From assembly GCA_018812925.1 (NCBI GenBank), contig JAHJCU010000004.1, positions 186,001-250,000 of the forward strand: 64,000 nucleotides of DNA. Reading direction: 5' to 3'. Source of the DNA: Candidatus Omnitrophota bacterium. GTDB taxonomy: Bacteria; CAIJMQ01. The notes beneath the pieces are model-generated. The model did no database searches. It was not told the DNA's origin and saw only the letters and a list, made by a program, of their open reading frames with translations. Positions 7,092 through 56,671 of this stretch are shown here, in pieces. The position numbers and the translations under genes are program-made. Each line of letters begins with the position of its first letter. Position 1 is the first letter of the stretch.

Positions 7092-8162
7092 TTATCCAAA
7101 GAAAACCTTAGCTTCTTCCAAAAGGTCATTATTAACGACTCTTATTTCACCAACCGCTTCTTCAAGAGGAACAGACACAAGTTCTCCTTTTCTAAGGGCC
7201 GCCATTTTGCCGAATTCTTCTTTTTTAACCATATCTATGGCTTTAAGTCCTAATCTGGTGGCAAAATATCTGTCAAATGCCGAAGGAGAACCTCCTCTTT
7301 GCAGATGTCCTAAAATAACAGAACGAGTTTCAATACCCGTTCTGTTTTCTATTTCTTTTTCCAAAGCTTTTGCTATTCCGCCCAATTTTACATGTCCAAA
7401 AGAATCAGTTCCTTCAGATTGAGTGAAGAATTTTCCCGCCTGCTTGCTTTCGCAAGAAGCGGGCAGGTCTCCACCCTTTGGAAGCGCGCCTTCGGCAACC
7501 GCAATAATACTGTAAAGTTTGCCGTTTTCTTTTCTTTTATTTATTACTTTACAAACTTCATCTATGTTAAAAGGCTCTTCAGGAATAAGGATTACATGGG
7601 CTCCGCCCGCTATCCCGCCTTCAAGAGCAATCCAACCGGCATGTCGTCCCATTACTTCTACGACCAAAACTCTATGATGAGACTTTGCAGTTGTATGAAG
7701 AGAATCTATTGCTTCAGATACGCGATTGATTGCTGTATCAAAGCCAAAACAAATATCCGTAGCCGAAAGGTCGTTATCTATTGTTTTTGGGACACCTACT
7801 ACCTTAACGCCTTTTTTACTCAATTTATTTGCGACTCCGAGCGTATCGTCTCCGCCTATAGCTACTAAAGCATGAAGACCGAGTTGATTCATGTTCTCTA
7901 TCGCTTTTTGCTCTCCGCCTTCTTCTTTATACGGATTTGTTCTAGAAGTTCCAAGAATTGTTCCTCCTTCGCGATGAATATCTTCCACTTTATCTATACT
8001 TATTTCTTCGACGTTTTTGTTAAGCAGTCCGCGCCATCCGTCTTTTATTCCTATTATTTCGTACCCCAATTTTTCACCTTTTACTACCACAGCACGTATT
8101 ACCGCGTTTAACCCAGGAGCGTCTCCGCCACCGGTCAGCACGCCTATTTTCTTCTTTTCCAT
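7092..8162 (-). CDS. pfp: 6-phosphofructokinase, pyrophosphate-type
   Basis: A 356-residue phosphofructokinase that phosphorylates fructose 6-phosphate in glycolysis. Family motifs are GGGDAPGLNAVIRAVV, GTSRTNPY, the substrate motif PKTIDNDL and MGRHAGWIA. The donor-site signature reads GGDDT (Asp where ATP enzymes have Gly) and PKTIDND (Lys where ATP enzymes have PGTIDND); both changes mark PPi-dependent enzymes, which work reversibly. Residues about 233-243 (PASCESKQAG region) are encoded by an inserted 33-bp palindrome. The start overlaps the coaBC stop by 19 bases and has a GGGAGG ribosome site inside coaBC. Confidence 0.93.
   Translation of the reverse strand: MEKKKIGVLTGGGDAPGLNAVIRAVVVKGEKLGYEIIGIKDGWRGLLNKNVEEISIDKVEDIHREGGTILGTSRTNPYKEEGGEQKAIENMNQLGLHALVAIGGDDTLGVANKLSKKGVKVVGVPKTIDNDLSATDICFGFDTAINRVSEAIDSLHTTAKSHHRVLVVEVMGRHAGWIALEGGIAGGAHVILIPEEPFNIDEVCKVINKRKENGKLYSIIAVAEGALPKGGDLPASCESKQAGKFFTQSEGTDSFGHVKLGGIAKALEKEIENRTGIETRSVILGHLQRGGSPSAFDRYFATRLGLKAIDMVKKEEFGKMAALRKGELVSVPLEEAVGEIRVVNNDLLEEAKVFFG
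7435..7467 (-). repeat. In-frame palindromic element in the PPi-phosphofructokinase gene
   Basis: A 33-bp GC-rich palindrome: on the + strand it runs from CCCGCCTGCTTGC to GAAGCGGGCAGG, with arms GCTTGC/GCAAG and CCCGC/GCGGG. It adds 11 residues to the enzyme between GALPKGGD and FFTQSEG, where relatives have a short loop. It is nearly identical, as a reverse complement, to the element in valS at 10464-10496. Length is a multiple of 3, so the frame is preserved. Confidence 0.85.
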
Positions 8163-9427
8163 TTGTTCCTCCCGATGTTTTGTATTTTATCAAGAATTTT
8201 ATCCGCCAATTCTATTTTGGAAAGTAGCGGCATTTTTTCTATTTTACCGTTTTTATCAATAAAAACAGCTTTATTGGTATCACTACAAAAACCCGAGTTT
8301 TTCATAATGATGTCATTTGCTACAATCAAGTCAAGATTCTTTGTTTTCAATTTTTCCTTAGCTACATCTATCTGATTTTCTGTTTCTATGGAAAATCCGA
8401 CCGTTATTTTGTTTTTCTTTATTTTACCAACTTCCAATAATATATCGGAATTCGGGACAAGTTTAATATCCCACGACCCTTCTGCTCTTTTTCTTTTTTG
8501 CTTCGTAAAAGTTTTCGGCTTAAAATCACCTATCGCAGAAGCCATTATCAATACATCTGTAGAGGCTAAATTTTCAATTACTTTATCTCTCATTTGCCTT
8601 GCAGTTACAACATTTATAATTTCAATTCCACCTGGTTGAGAAAGCAAAGTTGGGGCTGAAATTAATTTAACATCTGCTCCTCTTATTTTTGCCGCTTGAG
8701 CCAAAGCATAACCCATTTTGCCTGATGAAGCATTCCCAATAAAACGAATAGGGTCAAGAAATTCCCGAGTGCCTCCTGCAGTTATTAGAATTTTCACGCT
8801 TCTAAGATCTTCCCCGCCTGCTTGTCCCGATGTAACATCAGGGCGGGCAGGTTTTGCTGATAGGGCATGCTTAATATTTTTTATAATACTCTCTATTGAA
8901 GCAAACCTTCCTTCTCCTATTTTACCGCTTGCTAAAACGCCTTTATCAACAGGAACTATATAATAGCCCTTATCTTTCAATTTACCTAAATTTTCTCTAA
9001 AAATTACATTTTTATACATACCCTCATCCATTGCGGGAGCAAAGATTATAGGACCTTGAAAAGAAATAAGAAGCGTAGAAAGTAAATCGTCGGCTATACC
9101 GCACGCTGTTTTCGATATTATGTTGGCGGTGGCAGGAGCTACAAACATCGCATCAGCCCACTGCGTAAGTTTGATATGAACAAGTTCCTCATGGTTTGAG
9201 GCCTGAATCTGGGTATTTTTGTCCAGTTTATTAAACATCTTCAAATAAACAGGATTTCCAGAAAGCGTTTGGAAAGTCAGAGGATTAATAAATTTAGTAG
9301 CATTATCTGTCATCACAACTTTTACCTGCGCGCCGTCTTCCTGTAATTTTCTTAGCAATTGGCACGATTTATAACAGGCAATGCTACCTGTTACACCTAA
9401 TATAAATTTTTTACCCTCAAATATCAT
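8144..9427 (-). CDS. coaBC: Bifunctional phosphopantothenoylcysteine decarboxylase / phosphopantothenate-cysteine ligase
   Basis: This 427-residue fusion carries out two steps of coenzyme A synthesis. The CoaC flavoprotein half (residues 1-185) has GVTGSIACYKSCQLLRKLQ and the PAMDEGMY segment. The CoaB half (205-427) has the nucleotide-binding ITAGGTREFLDPIRFIGN motif and ends with a typical KKNKITVGFS...ANDI stretch. Both halves are intact. The linker contains the peptide KPARPDVTSGQAGG encoded by an inserted palindrome. With coaX at 24.9 kb, two CoA-pathway genes lie in the window. It probably forms an operon with rpoZ upstream and PPi-PFK downstream. Confidence 0.96.
   Translation of the reverse strand: MIFEGKKFILGVTGSIACYKSCQLLRKLQEDGAQVKVVMTDNATKFINPLTFQTLSGNPVYLKMFNKLDKNTQIQASNHEELVHIKLTQWADAMFVAPATANIISKTACGIADDLLSTLLISFQGPIIFAPAMDEGMYKNVIFRENLGKLKDKGYYIVPVDKGVLASGKIGEGRFASIESIIKNIKHALSAKPARPDVTSGQAGGEDLRSVKILITAGGTREFLDPIRFIGNASSGKMGYALAQAAKIRGADVKLISAPTLLSQPGGIEIINVVTARQMRDKVIENLASTDVLIMASAIGDFKPKTFTKQKRKRAEGSWDIKLVPNSDILLEVGKIKKNKITVGFSIETENQIDVAKEKLKTKNLDLIVANDIIMKNSGFCSDTNKAVFIDKNGKIEKMPLLSKIELADKILDKIQNIGRNKWKRRK
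8813..8851 (-). repeat. In-frame palindromic element in coaBC
   Basis: A 39-bp palindrome with outer ends CCCGCCTGCTTG and GGGCGGGCAGG and an inner stem CCCGATGT/ACATCAGGG. It is placed exactly in frame (13 codons) in the linker between the CoaC and CoaB domains, a position where an insertion is harmless. Its ends match those of the elements in the PPi-PFK, valS and pflX-like genes, but the central part differs. Confidence 0.82.
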
Positions 9428-9488
9428 TTGCTTTTACTTTCTATAAGACAAATTTTCTCGTTAATTGAAAAAGGATTTTATATCCCCC

Positions 9489-9749
9489 TCAAGCTTTTTT
9501 TTGCTTTTCTTTCTTCTTCTCTTTTTTCTCGGGGATGTTTGGTTTTCTGCCAATTGTTATCTTTCCTTGAGCAATTTCTTCCAAAGCTATTTGCATAGGA
9601 CCTTCAATTTCCGCCTGAATTAGTTTGGGTGAGCCCGAAACCAATTCCCTCGCCCTCTTGCTTGCCAAAGTGATCAATTCGAAAACATTCTCAATCTTAT
9701 CACTTGAGCTATCTGAATGTTTCTTTTTCTCTTCTATTTTTTTTACCAT
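9489..9749 (-). CDS. rpoZ: DNA-directed RNA polymerase subunit omega
   Basis: The 86-residue protein has the omega core NVFELITLASKRARELVSG followed by ALEEIAQGKITIGRK. Omega helps assemble and stabilise RNA polymerase by clamping the beta' C-terminus. The N-terminus and the C-terminal tail are lysine-rich, as often in AT-rich genomes. It lies directly after valS (3 bases) and before coaBC (about 60 bases); omega next to coaBC is a widespread bacterial arrangement, which supports both calls. Confidence 0.93.
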   Translation of the reverse strand: MVKKIEEKKKHSDSSSDKIENVFELITLASKRARELVSGSPKLIQAEIEGPMQIALEEIAQGKITIGRKPNIPEKKEKKKEKQKKA

Positions 9750-9752
9750 TTT

Positions 9753-12482
9753 TTATTTTCCCCCAATAGTTTTTAGTATCTGGTATAACTTTTCTCTCTT
9801 TTTTAAGAATTCTTCTTTTTCTGCTTTACATTTCTCTATTGCGCTCGGCTGCGCCTTTGACATAAAATCTCGGTTCGCTAATTTCTTCTCTATCCTTATC
9901 ATTCCCTCGTCCATTTTTGACAATTCTTTTTTTATCCTTGTATTCTCCCTTTCCAAATCTATGTCCTTTAATAAAATATAAACGCAAGTTCCCGACGAAG
10001 TAACTTGAGAAGAGAACTTCTCTTTAGCAGATATTTCTTTTTTTATCTGGATATCTTCAGCGTTTATAACCGATATTATGCTGTCTTTTTCTTTTATGAA
10101 AATTCCTTCTTCCTCTTCAGAGGATGGAATAACAACAAACTTCAACTTTTCGTGAAACGAGATATTCCGCTCAGCTCTAATGTTTCTGCTTGCTTGAATA
10201 ACTTCATATTTCCAGGTCGCCTCCTCAACAACCTTGTCTTCCGTTTTATCGATTTTAGAAATTGGCCACTGCGCAATTGCAACGCTTTCAGAAAAATTGC
10301 CACTTTTATACTGCGAAAGATGACTCCAGATTTCTTCTGTTATAAAAGGCATAAAAGGGTGCAGTAATCTTACTATTTTATCCAGAACATAGAACAATGT
10401 CTGCCTGCTGATTTGCGCCGTTTCGGATAAAACAGGATTCGGGTCCAAAGGACCATTTTCTTTCCTGCCCGCTTCTTGCAGAAGCAAGCAGGCGGGCTTG
10501 AATTTATACTTGATTAATTCTATATACCAGTCACAAAACTCGTGCCAGAAAAATTTAAAAAGCAACTCTGCCGATTCACTGAATTTAAAGTTTTTCAATA
10601 GTTCTGTAACTTTTTTATTGACTTCTTCTGCCCTTCTTAAAATAAATTTCTCGTCCAACCCTAGGGAAAGTTCATATATGTCTTCTACAGGTTTAAATCC
10701 ATCCCCCAGGTTTCCAATAGCGAATCGGGAAGCATTCCATATCTTGTTGCTGAAATTTCTCATGCCTTCAAACCTGTCCAGAGAAAAAATTATATCCTGT
10801 CCGGCTCCGGTATTAAGCTGCACAAGCGCCATTCTTAACGCATCTGTTCCGAAATCTTCTATTAATTCCAGAGGGTCGACAACATTGCCTTTGGACTTTG
10901 ACATTTTTCTGCCTTTTTTATCCCTGATTATGGGATGAATATAAACAGTGCTAAAAGGAACATCACCCTTAAATTTAAGTCCCATTAAAATCATTCTTGA
11001 TACCCAAGAATATATAATGTCATATGCTGTGACAAGAGTAGAAGTCGGATAAAAATGTTTCAAGTCAACAGTATCCTGCGGCCAACCAAGAGTTGACATA
11101 GGCCATAGGCTTGAAGAAAACCAGGTGTCTAATACATCTGTTTCTTTGGTTATGTTTTTACTGTCGCATTTTTTGCAAGATTTACCATCCACAACCTCTT
11201 TATTAAGCATAATTTCGTTACAATCTTCGCAATAGGATACAGGAATGGTATGTCCCCACCATATTTGCCTTGAAATACACCAATCTTTTACATTATCCAT
11301 CCAATCAAGATATATTTTAGTCCATCTTTCGGGAACAAATTTTATTTTGCCGCTTTTTACCGCTTTAACAGCAGGGCCTTTAAGTTTTTGAACATCAACA
11401 AACCATTGGGTAGATAGATACGGCTCTATCATTGTCCCGCAACGGTCACAATACCCTACTGAATGTAAATGAGGAGTAATTTTTACAAGATATCCTTCTT
11501 CCCTTAAATCGTTGACTACTTCTTCTCTGCATTTAAATCGCTCAAGTCCTTCATATTTTTTAGGAACTTGTTTCATTTTGCCTTCTTTATCCATAATTAC
11601 AAGATTAGCTAAGCCGTGCGTTTTGCCCATCTCGAAATCTGCAGGATCGTGGGCAGGAGTTACTTTAACGGCACCTGTCCCGAATGAAATTGAAACCCTT
11701 TCATCTGATATTACAGGAATTTCCCTTTGCGTCAAAGGCAAAATAAGTGTCTTATTTATAAACCGTTTATACCTTTTGTCTTTAGGATTTACCGCAACCG
11801 CCACATCACCAAACATTGTCTCCGGCCTTGTAGTCGCCACAGTGAGCTGCCCCTTACCATCTTTTAAGGGATAATTTATATGGAACAATTTACCTTCAGT
11901 CTCTCGATATTCCACTTCCACATTAGAAAGAGCGGTTCTACAGCGCGGGCACCAGTTAACAATATAATTACCTCTATATATCAATCTGTCTTTAAATAAC
12001 TGCGCAAAAGCTTCTTCTACCGCTTTAGAGTGTTCTTTGTCCATCGTAAATGAAAACCTGGACCAATCACAAGAACATCCCAACTTTTCAAGCTGTTTGA
12101 TTATTCTCTTTTCCTGTTGTTCTTTCCAATCCCAAATTTTACTTATAAGCTTATCTTTGCCAAGTTCGTGTTTGTTTATATTTTGCTTTGCTAATTCTCT
12201 TTCTATGACATTTTCCGTAGCAATACCAGCATGGTCACAACCCGGTATCCAAAGCGCGTCAAATCCCTGCATTCTCTTAAAACGTATTATTATGTCCTGA
12301 AGCGTTCCGCCTAATGCGTGTCCCATATGCAAGGAACCCGTTACATTGGGTGGAGGAATAACAATACAATAGGGTTTCTTGGGAGAAGAAGTATGAACTT
12401 CAAAAAGTTTTCTTTCTTCCCAGAAGGTAAACCACTTATTTTCTACTTCTTTGGGATTGTACCGTGGGGATATTTCTTGCAT
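9753..12482 (-). CDS. valS: Valyl-tRNA synthetase
   Basis: A 909-residue class I synthetase that charges tRNA-Val. Motifs seen: PPPNVTGSLHMGHALGGT (HIGH equivalent, residue 40 region), the CP1 editing domain, KMSKSKGNVVDP (KMSKS) near residue 525, the anticodon-binding helical domain ending HPFMPFITEEIW, and a C-terminal coiled coil (last 70 residues) that is typical of ValS. Residues 663-673 (PACLLLQEAGR) come from an inserted 33-bp palindrome in the anticodon-binding domain. Length is otherwise normal. It leads the valS-rpoZ-coaBC-PFK cluster. Confidence 0.97.
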   Translation of the reverse strand: MQEISPRYNPKEVENKWFTFWEERKLFEVHTSSPKKPYCIVIPPPNVTGSLHMGHALGGTLQDIIIRFKRMQGFDALWIPGCDHAGIATENVIERELAKQNINKHELGKDKLISKIWDWKEQQEKRIIKQLEKLGCSCDWSRFSFTMDKEHSKAVEEAFAQLFKDRLIYRGNYIVNWCPRCRTALSNVEVEYRETEGKLFHINYPLKDGKGQLTVATTRPETMFGDVAVAVNPKDKRYKRFINKTLILPLTQREIPVISDERVSISFGTGAVKVTPAHDPADFEMGKTHGLANLVIMDKEGKMKQVPKKYEGLERFKCREEVVNDLREEGYLVKITPHLHSVGYCDRCGTMIEPYLSTQWFVDVQKLKGPAVKAVKSGKIKFVPERWTKIYLDWMDNVKDWCISRQIWWGHTIPVSYCEDCNEIMLNKEVVDGKSCKKCDSKNITKETDVLDTWFSSSLWPMSTLGWPQDTVDLKHFYPTSTLVTAYDIIYSWVSRMILMGLKFKGDVPFSTVYIHPIIRDKKGRKMSKSKGNVVDPLELIEDFGTDALRMALVQLNTGAGQDIIFSLDRFEGMRNFSNKIWNASRFAIGNLGDGFKPVEDIYELSLGLDEKFILRRAEEVNKKVTELLKNFKFSESAELLFKFFWHEFCDWYIELIKYKFKPACLLLQEAGRKENGPLDPNPVLSETAQISRQTLFYVLDKIVRLLHPFMPFITEEIWSHLSQYKSGNFSESVAIAQWPISKIDKTEDKVVEEATWKYEVIQASRNIRAERNISFHEKLKFVVIPSSEEEEGIFIKEKDSIISVINAEDIQIKKEISAKEKFSSQVTSSGTCVYILLKDIDLERENTRIKKELSKMDEGMIRIEKKLANRDFMSKAQPSAIEKCKAEKEEFLKKREKLYQILKTIGGK
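10464..10496 (-). repeat. In-frame palindromic element in valS
   Basis: A 33-bp palindrome running from CCTGCCCGCTTCTTGC to AAGCAAGCAGGCGGG on the + strand. It is the reverse complement of the PPi-PFK copy with about two mismatches, although both genes are on the minus strand, so the element sits in opposite orientations relative to the two coding directions and still stays open. It encodes residues 663-673 in a loop between WYIELIKYKF and the helix SRQTLFYVLD. Confidence 0.85.
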
Positions 12483-12505
12483 TTTTAAGCCCTACTTATA
12501 CAATA

Positions 12506-12540
12506 AAAACCCGCTTAATTCAAGTGATAGACAGGGTTTT
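12506..12540 (-). terminator. Possible intrinsic terminator
   Basis: Arms AAAACCC and GGGTTTT pair around a 21-base loop that itself can fold (CTTAATTCAAG). Read on the minus strand the right arm runs into TTTTTATTG. It could end transcripts arriving from the cassette region before valS. The stem is short, so confidence is limited. Confidence 0.4.
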
Positions 12541-12568
12541 AACAATTAAGTTGCTTCTAAACGAGGAT

Positions 12569-12663
12569 TTAATTCAAATTGCGAGTTTTCCTTCTTACAT
12601 ACAGAAAATAAAGTAGCGGGATTACAAAAAGAGTGAGCATTAAGATACCTATCTGATTTATAA
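12569..12663 (-). pseudogene. Remnant of an RND transporter 3' end
   Basis: Minus-strand translation gives ...ILMLTLFVIPLLYFLYVRR ending KTRNLN and a stop codon. This matches the C-terminus of the intact RND transporter at 15.8 kb (ILTLFVIPLLYFLYVSRR), including a run of near-identical DNA (the segment CATACAGAAAATAAAG is shared). Nothing of the upstream 1000 residues is present; the homology starts about 30 bases after the last attC-like site. It is therefore a 5'-truncated copy separated from the full gene by the cassette cluster. Confidence 0.8.
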
Positions 12664-12694
12664 GACAGGTCAAGTACCTTCTGCAAAAAAGGAA

Positions 12695-12755
12695 GTATAA
12701 CGATTGAACTAAGCCGCTCCGCTCTTGCGGCGTCGGCTTCAGTGATTGGTCAGGT
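12695..12755 (-). other. attC-like recombination site, 61 bp
   Basis: On the minus strand the site reads ACCTGAC (R'' box), then GAAGCCGACGCCGC, a short loop, GCGGAGCGGCTT, TTCAATC and GTTATAC (R' box). The AAGCCG/CGGCTT and CCGC/GCGG arms form the characteristic imperfect hairpin of short integron attC sites, and the sequence is close to the classical 60-bp attC family. It lies 14 bases after the stop codon of the serine hydrolase gene, the normal place of attC in a gene cassette. Confidence 0.78.
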
Positions 12756-12768
12756 ACTCCTTAGCGAC

Positions 12769-14160
12769 TTACTTAAATTTCTTAGCCGTCATTTCTCTGC
12801 CGCCCTGGTACAGGGTCAGGCTCTCGACCACACCCGCTTCGCTGAGGTTAAACATAATTTGCGCATCAACTACCTTATAGAAAAATTTAGTCTCTGCTTC
12901 AGGGAACACCTCGAACTTTCCTTGTCCAGTTGCTTGAGCATAGAGTCCGTCTCCCTCCCTGATGATTGTGATAATGAAATTCGGAGCAAGCTCATACTGG
13001 CCCACATAAGCATCATAGATTTTAGGGTCTAATTTAATTGCCGTACGTCCTTTAGAAGGTTCAAAATTTGTTAGTGCATATTTGTTTTCAAGCAAGTGAA
13101 GTCCAATATCATCTATGTCGTTTGTAGAATTTGAGAGCACTACCACACCAACACGCTTCTTTTTGTCAAAACCGATAAAAGAATGATAGCCTCCAGTCCC
13201 TCCATTATGCCACACGATTTCTGTGCCATATTTGTTTAGCACATGCCAGCCCAGCCCAATTTCTAAATTAAGCACGCCGGTGTTATTTCGAACGAGATGT
13301 GTTTCTTGCATAACCGGCAATAAGTCAGATTTGATTAAACCCAAATTAGCAGCCACGAATTTAAGCATGTCGTTTGCCGTCGAATGCAAAGCACCTGCAC
13401 CTGCTAAAGTTGGAATATCCCAATTCATTGCGGTTTTTCCAGCTTGATCATGCCCCATCGCCATAGTTGCTTGAAGTTCAGTCGAGAGCTTAATTCGTGT
13501 ACTGTTCATCTTGAGTGGCTCGCAGATGCGTGTTATTACCAGCGTTTCATAATCCATCCCCGCTTTAAGGGCTAGAATGTGGCCCAACAGTCCACCACCC
13601 AAATTAGAGTATTCGTATTTGGCGCCAATGTCTCTGGTTAGCGTGTAGTTCGACAGAAATTCATACATCTGCTCAACGGTATAATCCGCGTATGGATTAT
13701 TCATATTCTTGGGAGCAAAATTACCTGGTAATCGTGGAAGGCCCGAAGTATGGATAGCCAAATGAAAAAGCGTGATTTCTTTGCCATCTTTGGTTGGAAC
13801 TTTAACTGATTTAGGGAGGAATTTCGTTATCGGATCGCTAAGCCTCAGCTCTCCCCGCTTGACCATGTCCGCTAGTAATAGAGAAGTGAAGACTTTGGTA
13901 ATTGAGCCGATTTCAAACACTGTGTTGCCATCAGGTTTTTGGCTATGGTCTTGACTCAATTTACCGTAGCTAATAATCTTGCTTCCTTGGTCATTAACAA
14001 GGCCAACAATTAAGCCGACACTCTTCTTATACTTATCAACTCGCTCTTGGAGAATCCTTTCGACTTCAGTTTCGGCCTGACCGTCTTGAGCAGCAAACAC
14101 ATGTTGTGGCAACAAAATTAAAAGATACCCAAATACCAAGAGTTTGAACAGCTTGCTCAT
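12769..14160 (-). CDS. Serine hydrolase of the class C beta-lactamase / AmpH-like family, on an integron-type cassette
   Basis: The 463-residue protein has a signal peptide (MSKLFKLLVFGYLLILLPQH...FA) and the penicillin-binding fold motifs SITK (nucleophile Ser-x-x-Lys, about residue 86), YSN (Tyr-x-Asn, near 184) and HNGGTGG (the KTG/HxG box, about 308), then a C-terminal beta domain. It could be a peptidase, esterase or DD-peptidase; resistance to beta-lactams cannot be inferred. Base composition is visibly more GC-rich than the neighbours and the gene is followed directly by an attC-like site, both signs of transfer. AAAGGAGG precedes the ATG. Confidence 0.9.
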   Translation of the reverse strand: MSKLFKLLVFGYLLILLPQHVFAAQDGQAETEVERILQERVDKYKKSVGLIVGLVNDQGSKIISYGKLSQDHSQKPDGNTVFEIGSITKVFTSLLLADMVKRGELRLSDPITKFLPKSVKVPTKDGKEITLFHLAIHTSGLPRLPGNFAPKNMNNPYADYTVEQMYEFLSNYTLTRDIGAKYEYSNLGGGLLGHILALKAGMDYETLVITRICEPLKMNSTRIKLSTELQATMAMGHDQAGKTAMNWDIPTLAGAGALHSTANDMLKFVAANLGLIKSDLLPVMQETHLVRNNTGVLNLEIGLGWHVLNKYGTEIVWHNGGTGGYHSFIGFDKKKRVGVVVLSNSTNDIDDIGLHLLENKYALTNFEPSKGRTAIKLDPKIYDAYVGQYELAPNFIITIIREGDGLYAQATGQGKFEVFPEAETKFFYKVVDAQIMFNLSEAGVVESLTLYQGGREMTAKKFK

Positions 14161-14253
14161 TGGTCCTCCTTTGGTTTATTCTATCATGCCAAAAAGAGTT
14201 ACCTAATTAGTGAGCATAAACAACCGTCCCCTTTCCTGACAAATGTTATCTTG

Positions 14254-14267
14254 CAAGACCTGACCCC
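14254..14267 (-). repeat. REP-like repeat, copy 1
   Basis: On the minus strand this reads GGGGTCAGGTCTTG, and the same 14 bases recur on the + strand at 28285-28298. Similar GGGGTCAGGTCT sequences are familiar as short extragenic repeats tied to Y1 (IS200-like) REP transposases in other genomes; no such transposase is in this window. Here the repeat follows directly the truncated C_GCAxxG_C_C gene. Confidence 0.5.
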
Positions 14268-14276
14268 ATTATCCTG

Positions 14277-14432
14277 TTACATGCCTCCGCCAAAGCTGTC
14301 GGAAAGTTTCAACGCGATATTTCGATCAATATTAAATTTTTCGCCAAAGGTGGAAAGAACAGCTTGAGAACAGGAAAAACCATTTTTGAAAAGTACTACC
14401 GCCTTTTCTGGATAATTTATTTTTTTATTCAT
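14277..14432 (-). pseudogene. Truncated C_GCAxxG_C_C family gene
   Basis: A 51-residue frame starts with ATG after AGAAAGGAA and encodes NYPEKAVVLFKNGFSCSQAVL followed by ALKLSDSFGGGM, then TAA. This is the N-terminal third of the C_GCAxxG_C_C redox protein family, which normally continues beyond FGGGMG with its cysteine motifs. The frame stops where a REP-like repeat begins, so the gene was probably cut by that insertion. Members of this family are common integron cassette cargo, and the fragment starts immediately after an attC-like site. Confidence 0.7.
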
Positions 14433-14439
14433 TTTTCCT

Positions 14440-42385: not shown

Positions 42386-45352
42386 ATGAGCAAGGACAAA
42401 ATCATAATAAGGGGAATTCGACAACACAATCTTAAAAACATCAATGTGGATATCCCCCGCAATAAATTAGTCGTGATTACGGGCCTTTCAGGTTCAGGGA
42501 AATCGTCGCTTGCATTCGACACCATTTATGCGGAAGGACAAAGACGTTACGTGGAATCGCTTTCGGCATATGCAAGACAGTTTCTGGAGATGATGGAAAA
42601 ACCCGATGTTGATTATATCGAGGGACTTTCGCCCGCCATAGCCATAGAGCAAAAATCGGTTTATAGGAATCCCCGCTCTACAGTGGGAACAATAACGGAA
42701 ATATATGATTACTTGCGATTACTCTTTGCTCATATCGGAACTGTTTTCTGTTATAAATGCGGCAAAAAAATACAAAGCCAATCGCCCTCTCAAATAGTAG
42801 AAAAGATAATGAAATATCCCGTTTCCACAAAAATACAAGTCCTTGCGCCGCTTGTCAGAGGTAGAAAAGGAGAATATACCGCGCTTTTGGAAAAAATACA
42901 GCAAGAAGGATATGTAAGAGTTCGCATAGACGGAATTATTCATGATTTGGAAGAAGACATCGGAATAGACAAAAACAAGAAGCATAACATTGAAGTCGTA
43001 ATCGACAGATTAGTCGTAAAATCGGATAACAAGCCCTATATTGCTGATTCCGTTGAAACAGCACTAAAATTGTCTGAAGGTTTAGTGCTTATAGTGGTAA
43101 AGAATAAAAAAACTACCCCCCGACGTCCGTCAGATGTCGGGGCGGGCAGCCCCGACGGACGTCGGGACGGGAATGAGAAGCTCTTTTCGCAAAAGTTTTC
43201 TTGCCCGCATTGTGATATATCTTACCCCGAACTTGCTCCCCGAATGTTTTCTTTTAATTCTCCCTACGGCGCCTGCCAGCAATGTCACGGGTTGGGAGAA
43301 AAGATGGAAGTAGATGAGGATTTGATAGTGCCCGATAAGAATAAATCGATTGCCGAAGGAGCTATAGAGCCATGGGCTAACCCTGTAACCACAAAAATGC
43401 ACAGATGGGAAAATTCTGTCAGTAGATATTTCTCAACCATACTTAAGTCGTTGTCGTATCATTATAAATTCAATCTAAATATACCGTTTAAGGATTTAGA
43501 TGAAAATATCAGGAAGATAATTTTATATGGTTCCGGTGAAGAATTAGTGCAATTCGATGTTGAAAGAGCAGGGCAACTGCATTCTTATGAAGACGCTTTT
43601 GAAGGAGTAGTCGGTAATATAGAAAGAAGATACCACGACACTGATTCAGAATATGTTAAAGGAGAAATTTACAGAAAATATATAATCCTCAAAACTTGCC
43701 CAGAATGCGGGGGGCAACGTTTAAAAAAAGAAGCATTATCGATAAAAATAAACAATAAAACGATATCTGAAGTTACTTCGTTAACCATAGAAAAAGTTTT
43801 GATATTTTTTGAAAATTTAGAATTAACTTCTCAAGAAGAATTAATCGCGCATCAAATACTGAAAGAAATAAAAGCGCGATTAACATTTTTAATGAATGTA
43901 GGGCTTGATTACATATCATTAGAAAGAAAAGCAGAGACGCTTTCCGGAGGTGAAACCGCAAGGACCCGTCTTGCAACTCAAATAGGTTCTTCCTTAGTGG
44001 GAGTGTTATATATTTTAGACGAACCCACCGTAGGACTTCACCAAAGAGACACGCGCAGATTAATAACCACCTTGAAAAATTTGCGCGATTTAGGCAATAC
44101 TATAATTATAGTCGAACACGACGAGAACACCATAAAATCTGCCGACCATATAATCGATCTAGGACCCGGTGCAGGAGAATACGGAGGCGAAATCGTAGCG
44201 CAAGGAACACCAAAAGAAATAATGCAGTCAAAAAATTCTTTAACAGGGAAATACTTAAAAAAAGAATTAACTATTCCTGTCCCTGAAAAAAATAGAATTC
44301 CTAAAAAAGGATATCTTGAAATTTGGGGGGCGCAAGAACATAATTTAAAAAATATAGATGTAAAGTTTCCACTAGGATTATTTATATGTATAACTGGCGT
44401 TTCAGGTTCAGGCAAGTCAACCCTAATAGACGAAATCCTTTTTAAAGGTCTGTCAAAAATACTATATCATTCAAAAATAAAAGTCGGCAAGCATGACAAA
44501 ATAACGGGTGCGGACAAAATTGATAAAGTAATAAACATCACGCAGGAGCCTATCGGTAGAACGCCTCGTTCCAATCCCGCAACTTATACGGATACATTCG
44601 GTCCGATAAGAGAAATTTTTTCAAAAATAAAAACAGCGCGAATAAGAGGATATAAATCGGGTCGTTTCTCGTTTAACGTAAAAGGAGGAAGATGCGAAAA
44701 ATGTAACGGTGAAGGATTATTAAAAATAGAAATGCATTTCCTCCCCGACGTATATGTTACTTGTGAATTATGCAAAGGAAAAAGATATAATAACGAGACA
44801 TTAGAGGTTAAATATAAAGGTAAAAACATCGCCGAAGTTTTGAGTATGAGTGTTGAAGAAGCATTGAAGTTTTTGGAGAATATTCCTGTTATTCAAAGGA
44901 AATTACAAACTCTGCATGATGTGGGGCTCGGATACATAAAATTGGGGCAATCAGCTACAACTCTTTCCGGCGGAGAAGCGCAAAGGATAAAATTGGCTAA
45001 GGAATTGAGTAAAGTGGCAACCGGAAATACGCTGTATATTTTAGACGAGCCTACTACAGGACTCCACTTTGCAGATACGGACAAATTACTTAAAGTTCTT
45101 AATCGGCTTGTAGACAAGGGGAATACCCTAATAGTTATAGAGCATAATCCCGATGTGATAAAAATTGCGGATTATATTATAGATCTCGGGCCAGAAGGCG
45201 GAGATAAAGGCGGCAAAATTGTAGCGAAAGGAACACCAAAAGAAGTTAGTTTATGCAAGAAATCGTATACTGGGAAAATCATAGAAAACATATTAACCCC
45301 CAAGAAAATAAAGCCCATCAATAAATCCGTCTCCAAAAAAGGGATCTCTTAA
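42386..45352 (+). CDS. uvrA: Excinuclease ABC subunit A
   Basis: UvrA recognises bulky DNA damage as a dimer in nucleotide excision repair. The 988-residue protein has two ABC ATPase modules ([12 protein letters not shown] and [11 protein letters not shown] Walker A, two LSGGE signatures), and zinc fingers CYKCGKK, CPHC...CQQCHG and CEKC...CELCKG. It is longer than the usual 940; part of the excess is an 18-codon palindrome at residues 245-262 before the second zinc module. No strong ribosome site precedes the ATG. It is followed closely by a TPR gene. Confidence 0.97.
43118..43171 (+). repeat. In-frame palindromic element in uvrA
   Basis: A 54-bp GC-rich palindrome: outer arms CCCGACGTCCGTC (43119-43131) and GACGGACGTCGGG (43154-43166), inner part with CGGGGCGGGCAGCCCCG. 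It encodes [18 protein letters not shown] between VVKNKKTT and NEKLFSQ, where E. coli UvrA has a variable loop. The GGGGCGGGCAG segment is shared with the other in-frame elements; it looks like one element nested in another. Confidence 0.82.
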
Positions 45353-49297: not shown

Positions 49298-49435
49298 CCC
49301 AATTTCCGTTAGACTCGCAAGGCCAACATTTTTGACCTACTTGACGTAACGTTGAAACAGGCAAGTAATCAACGGAAGCTAAGGAGTTTATTTAAAAGTG
49401 GAAACAGTTGATTTTAAAAATATGGAGGTTAATCT

Positions 49436-50710: not shown

Positions 50711-51042
50711 GAAAGAGGGGGAATGATAAAAAATGGGTTTGGGTAATAGCGTTTGTCTTTTTAGGGGGGTTTTTAATGTATCTTCTAATCCCCAATTATT
50801 CGACGCTTGTAAGATACCAAGAAGACTACGAAGCTTTAAACATTCAAATAAACGAATTAGAGAAAGAAAATGAAAATCTAAAAATAGAGATTAGAAAGTT
50901 AAAAACAGACCCATTATATATTGAAAAAATTGCCAGAAAAGAGCTCGGGATGACTAGGCAAGGCGAGATAATTTACAGAATAACGCCTACCCACCCCGCA
51001 GGGGATTCGGAGCTAAATGACTCAGCTGATAAAAAGGAATAG
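50707..51042 (+). CDS. Septum formation initiator family protein (FtsB/DivIC-like)
   Basis: The 111-residue protein has a short cytoplasmic start, one membrane helix ([17 protein letters not shown]) and a coiled coil (residues 37-68, [20 protein letters not shown]) followed by the conserved ending [11 protein letters not shown]. FtsB/DivIC proteins form a complex with FtsL and FtsQ/DivIB in the divisome. Overlap with eno by ATGA supports translational coupling and the call. Confidence 0.92.
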
Positions 51043-51047
51043 AAAAA

Positions 51048-52376
51048 ATGTTTCAGAATTTAACCGATAAATTACAAACAATTTTTAAAAATTTAAGAGG
51101 GCAGGGAGTAATTAGCGAAAGCAACATAAAGGAAGGATTGCGCGAAATCCAACTTGCTCTGCTTGAAGCGGATGTTAATTATCGGATAGTGAAAGAATTT
51201 ATTGAAAACATTGCTCAAGAAGCCGTTGGACAAAAAGTTATAAACAACATTACTCCTTCTCAAAAATTAATTAAAATAGTTCACGATAAATTAATAGAAC
51301 TGCTTGGGAAAGAAGCTTCCTCAATAAAGCATTCATCAAATCCGCCGAATATTATTATGTTAGTTGGATTACAAGGAAGCGGCAAAACAACAACAAGCGC
51401 TAAATTGGCAAAGTTTTTGAATAAGAAAGAGCAAAGTATTCTTCTTGCCGGAACAGACACGCAAAGGCCTGCAGCAAGAGAACAACTCCAATTTCTTGGG
51501 AAAAATTTGGGATTGCCGGTTATCACGGAAGGAAAAACACCGCTTGATATTGCCATAAATGCCGTAAAAAAAGCAGGTTCAATAAGCGCAGATGTTTTAA
51601 TCATAGACACTCAGGGAAGGCTCCATATAAACGAAGAATTGATGGATGAACTTATAAAAATGAAAAAAGCGGTTTCTCCTTCTGAAATTCTGCTCGTTGC
51701 AGATGCAATGACAGGACAAGACGCAGTCAATATTGCAAAGAGCTTTAATGAGAAATTAGGCATAACAGGTGTAATCCTTACTAAACTGGATACCGATACT
51801 CGAGGAGGAGCAGCAATCTCAATCAGAAAAGTTACAGGTGTGCCTATTAAATTTATAGGCACAGGTGAAAAAACAGAGGACTTAGAAATCTTTTATCCCG
51901 AACGCATGGCTTCGCGAATACTGGGGATGGGAGACATTTTAACATTAGTTGAAAAAGCCGAAAGCGAAGTTAACAAAGATGATGCGAAAAAATTAGTAAA
52001 AAAACTAAAATCGGAAAAACTGGACCTTGAAGATTTCCTGTCGCAACTTAGACAGATGAAAAAAATCGGGCCATTGTCTAAAATGCTGGATTATCTTCCC
52101 GTAGAGCCTGGTTTGAAAAATATGGACATTTCCGAAGAACGTTATAAACATATTGAAGCGATAATTTTGTCTATGACTCCGGAAGAAAGAAGTGAGCCTC
52201 GCATAATAGACGGCAGCAGAAGAAAAAGAATTGCTAAAGGAAGCGGGACAAATGTTCAGGATATCAACCAGTTATTGAAACAGTTTTACTCTGTTCAAAA
52301 ATTTATAAAAGGAATGGTAGGTAAAGGGTCAGAAATGAAAAGGAAAGGGTTTCTATCCCCCTTGATTTCCCCCTAG
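51048..52376 (+). CDS. ffh: Signal recognition particle protein
   Basis: Ffh binds signal peptides and SRP RNA and delivers ribosomes to the membrane. The 442 residues hold N, G and M domains: GLQGSGKTTTSAKLA, DTQGRLHI (usual form DTAGR), TKLDTDTRGGAAIS, and the RNA-binding motif SRRKRIAKGSGT. The C-terminal tail RKGFLSPLISP and the stop codon come from a repeat element that begins at about 52355; the ancestral stop is likely lost. GAATAG with AGGAA precedes the ATG. 4.5S RNA is not seen here. Confidence 0.96.
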   Translation: MFQNLTDKLQTIFKNLRGQGVISESNIKEGLREIQLALLEADVNYRIVKEFIENIAQEAVGQKVINNITPSQKLIKIVHDKLIELLGKEASSIKHSSNPPNIIMLVGLQGSGKTTTSAKLAKFLNKKEQSILLAGTDTQRPAAREQLQFLGKNLGLPVITEGKTPLDIAINAVKKAGSISADVLIIDTQGRLHINEELMDELIKMKKAVSPSEILLVADAMTGQDAVNIAKSFNEKLGITGVILTKLDTDTRGGAAISIRKVTGVPIKFIGTGEKTEDLEIFYPERMASRILGMGDILTLVEKAESEVNKDDAKKLVKKLKSEKLDLEDFLSQLRQMKKIGPLSKMLDYLPVEPGLKNMDISEERYKHIEAIILSMTPEERSEPRIIDGSRRKRIAKGSGTNVQDINQLLKQFYSVQKFIKGMVGKGSEMKRKGFLSPLISP

Positions 52377-52500
52377 AAATTGCATCCTGCAATTTCAGGG
52401 ACTTTAGTCCCGGAAATTCTTTGAATTTCTCGGGACCAGAAATCAAGATATGGGGATGAAATCCTCCCTGTTACATTTCATGGAAATGTTAGGAGGACTA
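52355..52500. repeat. Three-hairpin repeat copy A5 plus a second nested palindrome
   Basis: The core at 52370-52434 has GAAATTGC/GCAATTTC, GGGACTTTAGTCCC and GAAATTC/GAATTTC. Outer arms TCCCCCTTGATTTC and GAAATCAAGATATGGGGA also pair. It is followed by TCCTCCCTG...ACATTTC / GAAATGTTAGGAGGA (52461-52500), which matches the outer arm of copy A6 at 37 kb. The left arm is translated as the last residues of ffh. Confidence 0.8.
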
Positions 52501-52537
52501 TGCTTAAATTGGCTTAAACTCATAAATGGAGGAAATA

Positions 52538-52783
52538 ATGGCAATAAGAATTAGATTAAAAAGAATAGGTAAAAAGAAACAAAGTTATTACAGAATAGTA
52601 GTTGCGGACGTTCGTTTTCCAAGAGACGGCAGATCAATCGAAGAAATCGGACTCTATGACCCAAATCAAGATCCTGCAAAAGTAGATATCAACAAAGAAC
52701 GTTTAGAATACTGGATGGGAAACGGAGCTACCCTTACTCCTACTGTGGAGAATATTCTCAAAAGCAGACCCAAATTAAAATAA
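52538..52783 (+). CDS. rpsP: 30S ribosomal protein S16
   Basis: An 81-residue protein, MAIRIRLKRIGKKKQSYYRI, with the S16 core RDGRSIEEIGLYDPNQDP and ERLEYWMGNGATLTPTV. An upstream ATG at 52526 in the same frame is less likely; GGAGGA at 52528-52533 is correctly placed for 52538. It precedes trmD and rplS as in many bacteria, but rimM is missing from between rpsP and trmD. Confidence 0.97.
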   Translation: MAIRIRLKRIGKKKQSYYRIVVADVRFPRDGRSIEEIGLYDPNQDPAKVDINKERLEYWMGNGATLTPTVENILKSRPKLK

Positions 52784-52842
52784 CGGATAGTATTTTTCAG
52801 TCAGTTTTTTCTAAATACTAAATACTATCTACTAAATACTTG
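52784..52842. repeat. Word-hairpin element between rpsP and trmD
   Basis: GGATAGTATTTTT (left) pairs with AAATACTAAATACTATC (right), and AATACT words recur four times. It fills the 67-base gap between the genes and may slow or end transcription. Confidence 0.55.
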
Positions 52843-52850
52843 TTTTAAAA

Positions 52851-53591
52851 ATGGACATTCACATACTCACTCTTTTCCCGAATACATTCCGCGGGGTTTT
52901 TGAAGAAAGTATAATAAAAAGAGCTCAAGAAAAAGGTCTAGTTAAGATATTCCTGCACGATTTGAGACAATTCGGATTAGGCAAACACAAAGTTACAGAC
53001 GATGCTCCTTATGGCGGCGGAGCAGGAATGATTATGCAAATAGAGCCTATATATGCAGCGATAAAAAAAATAAACAAAAATAACCGAAAGAAAAAAATAA
53101 AAAGCAGAACAATTCTTCTCACTCCGCAAGGTGAAGTTCTAAACGAAAAGAAAAGTAAAAAATTGGCAAAAGAGTCGTCTCTTGTTCTTATATGCGGACA
53201 TTACAAGGGGTTAGATGAAAGAATCCGACTAAATCTTATAGACGAAGAAATATCTGTAGGGGATTATGTTTTAAGCGGAGGAGAAATCGCGGCTATGACC
53301 GTTGTAGATACAGTAGTAAGACTTATCCCTAAAGTTGTGGGGAATAAAGAGTCAATTAAGTTAGATTCCTTCTATCAAAATATTCTGGAAGGGCCATTAT
53401 ATACGCGACCCGCAGAATTTGAAGGGATGAAAGTTCCCGACATTCTCTTGTCGGGCAATCACGAAGAAATATCTAAATGGAGAAGGAAGGAAGCTTTAAG
53501 AAGAACATATTTAAAAAGACCCGAACTTCTTGATACGATTAAATTAAACAAAGAAGACAAACAAATGTTAAAGGAAATCAAAAAAGAATAA
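52851..53591 (+). CDS. trmD: tRNA (guanine-N1)-methyltransferase
   Basis: TrmD methylates G37 of tRNAs reading CNN codons. The 246 residues begin MDIHILTLFPNTFRGVFEES and have the SPOUT knot motifs LTPQGEVLNE, LICGHYKGLDERI and ISVGDYVLSGGEIAAM. Full length. No close ribosome site is visible before the ATG, so translation may depend on coupling. It lies between rpsP and rplS. Confidence 0.97.
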   Translation: MDIHILTLFPNTFRGVFEESIIKRAQEKGLVKIFLHDLRQFGLGKHKVTDDAPYGGGAGMIMQIEPIYAAIKKINKNNRKKKIKSRTILLTPQGEVLNEKKSKKLAKESSLVLICGHYKGLDERIRLNLIDEEISVGDYVLSGGEIAAMTVVDTVVRLIPKVVGNKESIKLDSFYQNILEGPLYTRPAEFEGMKVPDILLSGNHEEISKWRRKEALRRTYLKRPELLDTIKLNKEDKQMLKEIKKE

Positions 53592-53676
53592 GTAGAGTTC
53601 ATCTTTTTCCGAGCGATTAGGCACATAAGGGTCATTTCAGGTATAATCACTGAAATTATTAATAGGGGGCAATAAA

Positions 53677-54045
53677 ATGTTAGATATCAGACAAACTGTA
53701 GAAAAACCGAGAATGAGAGAAAAAATTTCTGAGTTTCGAGTAGGAGACACGGTAAAAGTTTCGCTAAAAATTAAAGAAATAATTAAAGAAGAAAGAAATA
53801 AGAAGAAGGGCAGTAAAGAAAAGGTTACAGAAAAAGAAAAAATTTATCCGTTTCAAGGAATAGTGATAAAAAGAAAAGGCGGGGGTATAAGAGAAACCTT
53901 CACTGTTAGAAAAGAAAGCCATGGCATAGGTGTAGAAAGAATATTTCCGCTTCATTCACCGATAATCAGCGAAATCCACGTCCTGAAAAAAGGTAACGTA
54001 AAAAGAGCAAAGCTTTATTATTTGAGAGATGGGAAGAAGAGATAG
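53677..54045 (+). CDS. rplS: 50S ribosomal protein L19
   Basis: The 122-residue protein has the L19 core [15 protein letters not shown]...[22 protein letters not shown]...[11 protein letters not shown] and KLYYLR at the end. A lysine-rich insertion (residues 37-50, [16 protein letters not shown]) lengthens the first loop. L19 bridges the subunits. A hairpin TTTCAG/CTGAAA around 53635-53655 overlaps a TATAAT in the leader, possibly regulatory. GGGGG precedes the ATG. Confidence 0.96.
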
Positions 54046-54080
54046 TTTAGATACTTGATGCTGGATACTTGATACTCGTA
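54046..54080. repeat. Word-type repeat after rplS
   Basis: GATACTTGATGCTGGATAC followed by TTGATACTCGTAAATTAG repeats the words of the 60.3 and 24.15 kb elements, but only one arm is clear here. Confidence 0.45.
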
Positions 54081-54082
54081 AA

Positions 54083-54484
54083 TTAGTCGTTTCTCATTCT
54101 TCTATTTAGTTCTGAAATGAAATCATCTCTATTTTTGGGAGACACCAATGTAAATCCTTTCCTGTGATTAATCATCACCCTTTTTAAAGAGAAAGCAGGG
54201 GCACTCAGTATATTAGAACTCTTCTCTACGTTTATTATATCTTCGTATTTGATTTTCTCCTTCAAAATGCCTGCTTGCACAAGTAAGTGGTTATCATACA
54301 TAATATATCTACAGGGTGAAAATAAAAGAATTAGAAAAACTAAAAACGCTCCACTTGCAATAGAAATGATTCCTCCCCCCTTAGAATATCGAAACGCACA
54401 AATGCCGAGTCCGATAGAAAACAGGAAGGATATGGCAAAGACAATTATCAGCCATATATCGACTTTTGTTGGATATATTTTCAT
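54083..54484 (-). CDS. Bacterial PH-domain membrane protein
   Basis: The 133-residue protein has two hydrophobic helices at its N-terminus (residues 11-31 and 37-57) followed by a small PH-like domain (MYDNHLLVQAGILKEKIKYEDIINVEKSSN...VSPKNRDDFISELN). Such 'bPH' membrane proteins are widespread and of unknown role. It faces rplS and is opposite in direction to all neighbours. The gap 54485-54587 shows nothing. Confidence 0.75.
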   Translation of the reverse strand: MKIYPTKVDIWLIIVFAISFLFSIGLGICAFRYSKGGGIISIASGAFLVFLILLFSPCRYIMYDNHLLVQAGILKEKIKYEDIINVEKSSNILSAPAFSLKRVMINHRKGFTLVSPKNRDDFISELNRRMRND

Positions 54485-54587
54485 ATAATTAACTATTAAT
54501 TCTGTTTTAGATTACTTACCTTGCAAAAATAAGTTATGTCTGATAACATTTTTTATCACAATAGATAAAGAATAACAAGGGATTTTT

Positions 54588-55229
54588 ATGCCTGAAAAAA
54601 TAGACATTACCGTTTATGAAAGAAACTTGTGGCAAAAAGATATAAAGTTAGTGGCAGGCATAGACGAAGCTGGCAGAGGTCCATTAGCAGGTCCCGTAGT
54701 AGCCGCAGTGGTAATCTTCTCCCCTTTCAAGAAAATAGAAGGGGTTAAAGACAGCAAAAAACTCTCGCCTTCCAAAAGAGAACAACTCTTTGAACTGATA
54801 ACCAAAGAGGCTCTGGACTGGGGTGTTGGAATAGTAAGCGAGAGAACAATAGAAGAAATAAACATCTTACAGGCAACACGTCTGGCAATGTTAAGGGCCA
54901 TAAAAAATTTAAAAAGAACTCCCGAATTCCTGTTAATAGACGGGCCTATCTCTCTTGATATAAAAATATCGCAAAAACCAATAATAGGAGGCGATGGTAA
55001 ATCTTTTTCGATAGGCGCGGCTTCAATAATAGCCAAAGTTACAAGGGATAGATTAATGCAGAAATACCACAAATTATTCCCCAAATACGGGTTTGATAAA
55101 CATAACGGATACGGCACCCGGAAACATCTCCAAGCCCTGCAAGTATATGGACCCTGCTCTATTCATAGGAGAACTTATGAACCTGTTAAGAAACTTATTA
55201 AAGAAAATCAAATTATCCATTTTCCTTAA
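54588..55229 (+). CDS. rnhB: Ribonuclease HII
   Basis: RNase HII removes ribonucleotides from DNA. The 213 residues carry the catalytic DEAGRGPLAGPVVAAVV (Asp-Glu), VKDSKKLSPSKRE, the later LIDGP Asp and SIGAASIIAKVTRD, and KYGFDKHNGYGTRKHLQAL near the end. Normal length. It follows rplS, with the PH gene inserted, and overlaps yraN. Confidence 0.97.
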   Translation: MPEKIDITVYERNLWQKDIKLVAGIDEAGRGPLAGPVVAAVVIFSPFKKIEGVKDSKKLSPSKREQLFELITKEALDWGVGIVSERTIEEINILQATRLAMLRAIKNLKRTPEFLLIDGPISLDIKISQKPIIGGDGKSFSIGAASIIAKVTRDRLMQKYHKLFPKYGFDKHNGYGTRKHLQALQVYGPCSIHRRTYEPVKKLIKENQIIHFP

Positions 55230-55593
55230 AAAAAGGGATAGAAAAGATGCGGGGAAGATTGGGGAGAACATTGCCACAAAATTTTTAACCCGTAAAGGTT
55301 ATAGCATTCTTGAACAAAACTTCAGAGTAAAAGGAGGCGAAATAGATATAATCGCTTCTAAAGACAATACTTTAGTTTTTGTAGAAGTAAAATCACGCAC
55401 ATCTACAGAATACGGAACAGGAGAAGAGGCAGTTACTTATACAAAAAGAAAAAGATTAATTCTTGCCGCAAAGATTTATCTAAAATACAAGGGTGAAGAT
55501 TATAACTGCAGATTTGATGTAATCGCTATACTTTTCGATAAGACAAGAAAAGCGAAAGAAATAAATCATATTGAAGATGCGTTTACATTATAA
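55177..55593 (+). CDS. yraN: YraN/UPF0102 family nuclease-like protein
   Basis: A 138-residue protein of the UPF0102 family with the endonuclease-like signature GENIATKFLTRKGY, GGEIDIIASKDNTLVFVEVKSR and FDVIAIL. The start at 55177 is chosen because AGGAG lies five bases upstream; the frame is open further up to 55093, which would overlap rnhB by 137 bases. With this start the overlap is 53 bases. rnhB-yraN pairing is very common in bacteria. Biochemical role uncertain, probably DNA processing. Confidence 0.9.
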   Translation: MNLLRNLLKKIKLSIFLKKRDRKDAGKIGENIATKFLTRKGYSILEQNFRVKGGEIDIIASKDNTLVFVEVKSRTSTEYGTGEEAVTYTKRKRLILAAKIYLKYKGEDYNCRFDVIAILFDKTRKAKEINHIEDAFTL

Positions 55594-55603
55594 AATAACG
55601 TTA

Positions 55604-55672
55604 CAAAACTAACGGTTTTCGGTTGTCGGTGTTCGTAGTAGCGAAAACCTAAAACCGATAACCGATTTACTT
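55604..55672. repeat. Word-hairpin element before the radical SAM gene
   Basis: Left arm AACGGTTTTCGGTTGTCGG, right arm CGAAAACCTAAAACCGATAA; the words (CGGTT-, AACCG-) are complementary. It fills the gap between yraN and the next gene. Confidence 0.7.
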
Positions 55673-55684
55673 ATTTGAACTGAC

Positions 55685-56671
55685 ATGTATTCGATTTATT
55701 TAGAATCATACGGAAATGGAAACTTATTAAAAGTAATTGAAAAAACTTTTAAATTATTGGAATCCTGCGTTATCTGTCCGCGCAAATGCAAAATAAATCG
55801 TCTGAAACCCGCCACTGAAAACTCGGCGGGCAGGGGCGAAAAAGGGTTTTGTAAGACCGCACTACTGCCTAAAGTTTTCAGTTATACGCAACACTATGGC
55901 GAAGAACCCCCTATTTCAGGGCAAAACGGTTCCGGAACAATCTTTTTTTCAGAGTGCAATATGCGTTGTCTCTATTGCCAGAATTACAAATTCAGCCAAG
56001 CGGGATTGGGAAAAGAAGTAGAGACAGAAGAATTAGCCAACTATATGTTGCGATTACAAGATTTGGGATGTCATAACATAAATTTTGTTACTCCAACACA
56101 TATACTCCCCCAAATTTTAAAAGCACTATACATCGCAATCCCAAAAGGTCTTAAAATCCCGCTTTGTTACAATACAAGCGGTTATGAACTGCCAGAAATA
56201 ATAAAACTACTTGACGGTATTATAGACATATATCTCCCCGATATGCGTTATAGTGACAATGAATCTGCAATAAAATATTCTTCTGCGCCTGATTATCCTT
56301 TATATAATCAACATTCCATAAAAGAAATGCACCGCCAAGTCGGTATTGCACAAATCGACAAAAATGGCATAATAAAAAGGGGAATGATTATCAGGCACCT
56401 TGTCCTGCCCAGTAAAATATCAGGAACGAAAAAGATTATGAAATTTATTGCGGAAGAATTATCCAAAGAAACATACATCAGTTTAATGAGCCAATATTTC
56501 CCCTGCCATAAGATAAAAAAAACAGACCAGCTCGGCAGAAGAATTACTATTGAAGAATATGAAGAGGCTCAGAATATAATGCATAAATACGGCTTGCATA
56601 ACGGCTGGATTCAAGAACCGGACGGATTGAAAAAATTTGCCGGTGTGAATATGAAACAGAATTTATCATAA
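55685..56671 (+). CDS. Radical SAM protein of the PflX (COG1313) type
   Basis: A 328-residue radical SAM enzyme of the PflX/AmmeMemoRadiSam-related group. The N-terminus has CVICPRKCKINR and GEKGFC, cysteines of an extra cluster; the radical SAM motif CNMRCLYCQNY (CxxxCxxC) begins at about residue 98. The usual role is activating a glycyl-radical-like or unknown partner. Residues 42-50 (PATENSAGR) stem from an inserted 27-bp palindrome placed between the two extra-cluster cysteine segments. Confidence 0.88.
   Translation: MYSIYLESYGNGNLLKVIEKTFKLLESCVICPRKCKINRLKPATENSAGRGEKGFCKTALLPKVFSYTQHYGEEPPISGQNGSGTIFFSECNMRCLYCQNYKFSQAGLGKEVETEELANYMLRLQDLGCHNINFVTPTHILPQILKALYIAIPKGLKIPLCYNTSGYELPEIIKLLDGIIDIYLPDMRYSDNESAIKYSSAPDYPLYNQHSIKEMHRQVGIAQIDKNGIIKRGMIIRHLVLPSKISGTKKIMKFIAEELSKETYISLMSQYFPCHKIKKTDQLGRRITIEEYEEAQNIMHKYGLHNGWIQEPDGLKKFAGVNMKQNLS
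55808..55834 (+). repeat. In-frame palindromic element in the PflX-like gene
   Basis: A 27-bp element: CCCGCC...GGCGGG arms around ACTGAAAACTC, then CAGG. The shortest of the five in-frame palindromes; ends agree with the others (CCCGCC... and GCGGGCAGG). It adds nine residues exactly in frame. Confidence 0.78.

Follow-up and report, generated by a model that had tools for sequence, protein, structure and literature searches.

We analysed a stretch of 64,000 nucleotides (hereafter 'the window') from contig JAHJCU010000004.1 of a Candidatus Omnitrophota bacterium, five genes of which carry short GC-rich palindromes inserted in frame, and we are left with little doubt that these palindromes are mobile and protein-invading. 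Protein-invading palindromes are best known from Rickettsia. The window has a GC content of 36.6%, and its palindromes interrupt, as identified by Pfam, the genes for phosphofructokinase (PFK), CoaBC, ValS, UvrA and a radical SAM (PflX-like) protein (Table 1). Taken as a whole, the evidence is very probably best explained by short, non-autonomous mobile palindromes that are frame-filtered by selection. Four of the five belong to one family, F1, which consists of CCCGCC, a variable hairpin tip and GCGGGCAGG. Below, G000 denotes the genome of the window, G001 that of a sister species and G002 that of a congener used as the outgroup.

The initial annotation described five in-frame GC-rich palindromes with common ends. 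Protein alignments bear out the insertions, with exact additions of 11, 13, 11, 18 and 9 residues in PFK, CoaBC, ValS, UvrA and the radical SAM protein, respectively. The common ends (CCCGCC...GCGGGCAGG) are found in PFK, coaBC, valS and the radical SAM gene; the uvrA insert, reading CCCCGACGTCCGTC...GACGTCGGGACGGG with GCGGGCAG internal, has neither F1 end and represents another family. The PFK and valS copies are, as had been noticed, nearly identical (31 of 33 bases), and with respect to their genes they point in opposite directions. In protein alignments the PFK insert is absent from G001, G002, G003 and distant orthologues, and the ValS insert is found only in G000, being absent from G001, G002, G003 and distant species; at valS, G001 has an exact empty site. 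The UvrA insert, located between the UvrA interaction and DNA-binding domains, and the radical SAM insert are both missing from G001 and G002. In coaBC the insert occurs throughout the genus, with a length of 13 residues in G000 and G001 and of 9 in G002, but not in G003, G005 or G006; it occupies the linker that joins the Flavoprotein and DFP domains. A location in loops is suggested for the inserts by alignment columns prone to gaps and by domain borders. The genus-wide presence of the coaBC insert in a domain linker is what one would expect if the inserts were conserved functional parts of their proteins. We consider this hardly credible: each insert is lacking either in sister species or in every orthologue from beyond the genus, one and the same sequence is read in different frames in unrelated proteins, and in-gene copies shared between species diverge more than their flanks (17% versus 8%, two poorly aligned cases included).

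Table 1. Palindromes inserted in genes of the window and their host genes (window coordinates)
Feature	Coordinates	Strand	Description
F1 palindrome, PFK gene	7435-7467	+	33 bp, CCCGCCTGCTTGCTTTCGCAAGAAGCGGGCAGG; in frame; 11 residues added
PFK (phosphofructokinase) gene	7092-8162	minus	
F1 palindrome, coaBC	8813-8851	+	39 bp; in frame; 13 residues added
coaBC gene	8144-9427	minus	
F1 palindrome, valS	10464-10496	-	33 bp; in frame; 11 residues added
valS gene	9753-12482	minus	
Composite palindrome of non-F1 family, uvrA	43118-43171	+	54 bp; in frame; 18 residues added
uvrA gene	42386-45352	plus	
F1 palindrome, radical SAM (PflX-like) gene	55808-55834	+	27 bp, plus strand reads CCCGCCACTGAAAACTCGGCGGGCAGG; in frame; 9 residues added
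Radical SAM (PflX-like) gene	55685-56671	plus	

The window also contains a 57-bp intergenic palindrome (52381-52437) that is absent from G001.

Searching the whole genome and its relatives for the F1 ends revealed the family genome-wide. In the window GCGGGCAGG occurs four times, against 0.10 expected from shuffles, and its degenerate form CCYGCCCGC is found 77 times in the whole of G000, as compared to 5 times for the reversed control pattern. The excess recurs in two congeneric genomes (86 versus 4 and 39 versus 9) and in a different family of the class, represented by two genomes (45 versus 5 and 52 versus 4), and is missing from G003, a member of the same family (3 versus 1). The inserts have many relatives elsewhere in the genomes of the two sister species and shuffled sequences have none, which places the similarity among the elements far above that of shuffled or random genomic sequence and speaks against chance hairpins. 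The fixed ends of F1 are unequal: CCCGCC...GGGCAGG is present in 45 and 29 copies in the samples of the two sister species, and the perfect palindrome CCTGCCC...GGGCAGG in neither. None of 80 copies is flanked by a direct repeat of at least 4 bp, empty sites likewise show no target duplication, and the preference shown by the target itself, A(-3) T(-2) / T(+1) A(+2) T(+3), is weak, with dyad symmetry not above chance. F1 copies are nested, with exact boundaries, in other palindromes such as the CCCTGAACC...GGTTCGGGG elements (L124:5533, L039:19387), as well as inside another F1 (L102, L129).

This anatomy bears on the possibility that the palindromes are not mobile and were formed locally by replication template switching, a process that does produce hairpins and that could account for several non-F1 inserts of which the sampled sequence holds no second copy. 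Overall we judge this origin very improbable, and for F1 it is strongly disfavoured, as the members of F1 and of several other families resemble one another at many unrelated sites, keep fixed, unequal ends and enter other palindromes with exact boundaries.

Other repeats accompany F1 in these genomes. Many intergenic F1 copies of G000 are embedded in AT-rich, imperfect short-period repeats of the CTAGTATCTAG and GTAATTGGTA types, and similar filler surrounds copies in Bacteroidia (L141-L160). A second abundant palindrome family of G000 and G001, CCCCGTTAGA, has the form CCCCGTTAGAG...CTCTAACGGGG and has in-frame copies in genes as well, among them those at L129:14696 (42 bp) and L136:7791 (75 bp). 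The ATTGCGAG..CGAAGCAATC repeat (word GTCATTGCGAG) is abundant in the G001 sample (L101-L140), with 48 copies of GTCATTGCGA, and does not feature among the repeated words of G000; this type, too, occurs in frame in phage portal genes.

To compare filled and empty sites we aligned sequence from G000 (835 kb) and G001 (607 kb; mean identity of the aligned parts 90%), called genes with a simple codon-usage caller and collected gaps of 15–90 bp with well-aligned flanks. This gave 66 cases, including 49 GC-rich hairpins; genes contain 45 of the hairpins, 41 of which have a length that is a multiple of three ('3n'). When gene status is defined by the empty site, 39 of 44 are 3n (p=4e-14). Of the exceptions, at least the PFK copy owes its status to alignment jitter, its true length being 33. 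Since palindromes make up 45 of the 55 in-gene differences of 15–90 bp, about four in five, it is these elements, and not random insertions and deletions, that supply most mid-size changes of protein length in the genus. The genes with filled and empty sites include gatA, pdxA, carB, purL, trpE and those for a RecB/AddA-like helicase and a relative of PEP carboxykinase. In pdxA (L045 15769-16899; L103 10747-11763) the two sister species carry different palindromes at different sites.

The direction of change was read from G002, which lies outside the pair formed by G000 and G001 (its ValS is 78% identical to that of G000, versus 97% for G001). Seventeen of 41 inserts are testable in this outgroup, and 15 of the 17 are absent from it and are therefore gains, so that most of the inserts are recent acquisitions. 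The remaining two are present in both G001 and G002 and missing, with a clean empty site, from G000, a pattern that fits footprint-free loss or parallel insertion.

The length of the elements depends on where they reside. The G000 and G001 samples contain 86 F1 copies, 48 of them genic, 35 intergenic and 3 at the edge of a gene; 47 of the 48 genic copies are 3n (24, 27, 33, 39 bp, etc.) as compared to 19 of the 35 intergenic ones (Fisher p=1e-6). The commonest intergenic non-3n form, a 25-mer with 10 copies, is never found inside a gene. The six combinations of orientation and frame are used unevenly by genic F1 copies (8, 3, 2, 14, 3 and 17; p=9e-5), the favoured F1-encoded peptides being PAR..GG, LPA..AG and PAC..AGR, and half of the genic copies are open in all six frames, somewhat above the expectation from GC-rich composition alone. 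These biases matter because the hairpin shape of the inserts and their location within essential genes could also suggest that they are skipped in translation or removed from the RNA, leaving the protein unchanged. Mitochondria provide a precedent in the mobile hairpin insertions termed byp, which likewise are short, GC-rich and found in genes of AT-rich genomes; here, however, the hosts are bacteria and phages, and the 3n-filtered lengths argue for translation rather than bypass. Skipping would require neither a 3n length, nor an open frame, nor a preferred frame, all three of which are seen or implied, and we regard it as very unlikely. Instead, the inserts are probably translated and harmless.

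F1 is not confined to this genus. The exact F1 24-mer is present in metagenome-assembled genomes (MAGs) of groundwater Bacteroidia, in repetitive, apparently intergenic DNA, as well as in a Desulfotomaculum MAG and two GC-rich viral contigs. The pattern CCCGCCTGC...GCGGGCAGG is found in 23 of 386 sampled genomes with the reversed control near zero, although single matches in GC-rich genomes may be due to chance. In G007, an unrelated genome, and in the other family of the class, F1 copies are mostly intergenic; heavy invasion of genes is therefore peculiar to the genus studied here.

The F1 27-mer form was detected in five environmental viral contigs, where it forms an in-frame part of portal genes (phrog_64); viral contigs yielded no 33-mer form. 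Comparison of 83 portal homologues (L328 being a further extract from the L293 contig) places the 27-mer at residue 37 (L291, L293, L348) and at residue 167/168 (L290, L293, L292), and many relatives have the site empty, for example L292 and L294 at residue 37. In other phages the portal loops 68-77 and 166-175 hold other palindrome families, of the ATTGCGAGCGAAGCAATC and GTCGGGG...CCCCGAC types. In-frame palindromes of several families thus share a few permissive portal sites (L290-L293, L348 and others), with close relatives empty. In-frame portal copies with empty sites in relatives make phages plausible carriers, and phages may help to carry the elements between hosts.

The mobility that the initial annotation had proposed is upheld by clean filled and empty sites, outgroup-polarised gains, nesting, and copies in other phyla and phages. 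We envisage the elements as imperfect palindromes of about 24–54 bp, with fixed unequal ends CCCGCC / GCGGGCAGG and a variable hairpin tip, that would copy or move to new genic and intergenic sites without duplicating the target. Frame-breaking copies would then be purged by selection, and the surviving genic copies would be those of 3n length that are read through without a stop, the protein usually gaining 8–18 residues. The elements may move as single strands that fold up and are cut in trans by an HUH (Y1/TnpA-type) enzyme, as has been proposed for repetitive extragenic palindromes (REPs; PMC8266576). Such single-strand movement fits the unequal ends, the absence of duplication, the nesting and the possible footprint-free loss; our assignment of the mover to the HUH class is nevertheless tentative, and we would give it clearly less than an even chance.

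Several observations weigh against the mobile, frame-filtered palindromes proposed here. Two of the 45 in-gene differences between the sister species (both in L064) resemble tandem-repeat units and are to be discounted, and the single-copy non-F1 inserts mentioned above may have another origin. The excess of 3n lengths is partly built into the element, given that intergenic copies also lean towards 3n: 19 of 35 in the two samples and, in G007 (L269-L277), 9 of 9 copies (27, 33 and 36 bp). As to the enzyme, the draft of G000, with its 77 F1 ends, contains no Y1 (PF01797) gene. G001, G002 and G005 do have Y1 genes, but F1 does not regularly border these; single F1-like copies are found in L166 and L168. 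RVT_1 is absent from the class and TnpB-type PF07282 is found in G002 only.

The same search bears on whether F1 might simply be an ordinary REP element, mobilised by a REP-associated tyrosine transposase (TnpA-REP, or RAYT), that happens to sit in genes. Size, palindromy, asymmetric imperfect pairing and scattered copies all match REPs (PMC3733652, PMC8266576), Y1 genes do occur in three of the genomes, and intragenic REPs are on record in several genera, with uvrA among the hosts (PMC10969869, PMC3733652). The intragenic REPs of the GTAG and CGTC families (PMC3733652) are, like F1, multi-copy imperfect palindromes of 20–40 bp with unequal arms that sometimes lie in frame in genes. However, REPs are mainly extragenic whereas 48 of 86 F1 copies are in genes, and F1 has no fixed flanking GTAG, no CGTC tag and no linked TnpA-REP gene; the G000 draft, for all its F1 ends, contains no Y1 gene, and a Y1 gene of G001 is flanked by a different palindrome. 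We therefore hold this alternative to be unlikely, though the most substantial of those considered. The Y1 gene in question (L170, G001:C39) lies between two perfect-palindrome copies (~1248-1280 and 1964-1994) of type CCTC..CCCACCTC g GAGGTGGG..GAGG, a family with some 10 copies in G001 that is not among the repeated words of G000. This arrangement resembles a REP-transposase pair, and classical pairs may exist in the genus.

In kind, the phenomenon is known, with Rickettsia palindromic elements (RPEs) and intragenic REPs preceding it; the families described here are unusually active. RPEs are in-frame palindromic repeats in Rickettsia genes (Ogata et al. 2000, 2002, as summarised in PMC10969869 and PMC3733652). 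To the extent that these summaries describe them, RPEs resemble the present elements in being palindromic repeats inserted in frame into numerous unrelated genes, in belonging to an AT-rich genome with several such families, and in being tolerated in loops or between domains. By the same descriptions they are set apart by size (RPE-1 types are ~150 bp, versus 24–54 bp here), by lineage, the present elements also occurring in phages, and by a CGTC end reported for RPE-4 and RPE-6, which we did not encounter in F1 with its CCCGCC and CAGG ends. The initial annotation's mobile, in-frame, protein-invading element outside Rickettsia is thus borne out, its single family giving way to several palindrome families, and 'Rickettsia-like' would be apt as an analogy only. 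F1 likewise recalls miniature inverted-repeat transposable elements (MITEs) and non-autonomous IS200/IS605 elements in being short, non-coding, multi-copy and presumably moved in trans, but DDE-type MITEs have a target-site duplication that F1 lacks, and no parent insertion sequence was found. With the search terms used, the literature yielded no paper about palindromes from candidate phyla. Judged by the papers searched, there is novelty in the families, in the lineage, in how many filled and empty sites separate two species and in the in-frame phage copies.

Dozens of differing sites in the genome samples of two sister species make insertion rate, target choice, frame filter and loss measurable. 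The in-frame copies in phage portal genes suggest a possible route across phyla, one that is testable in phage and bacterial laboratory systems. It is conceivable, though we would not yet wager on it, that F1 represents a RAYT-less mobile palindrome family which circulates among phages and several phyla and which, in this genus, would be the main source of new 8–18-residue segments in the proteins of essential metabolism.

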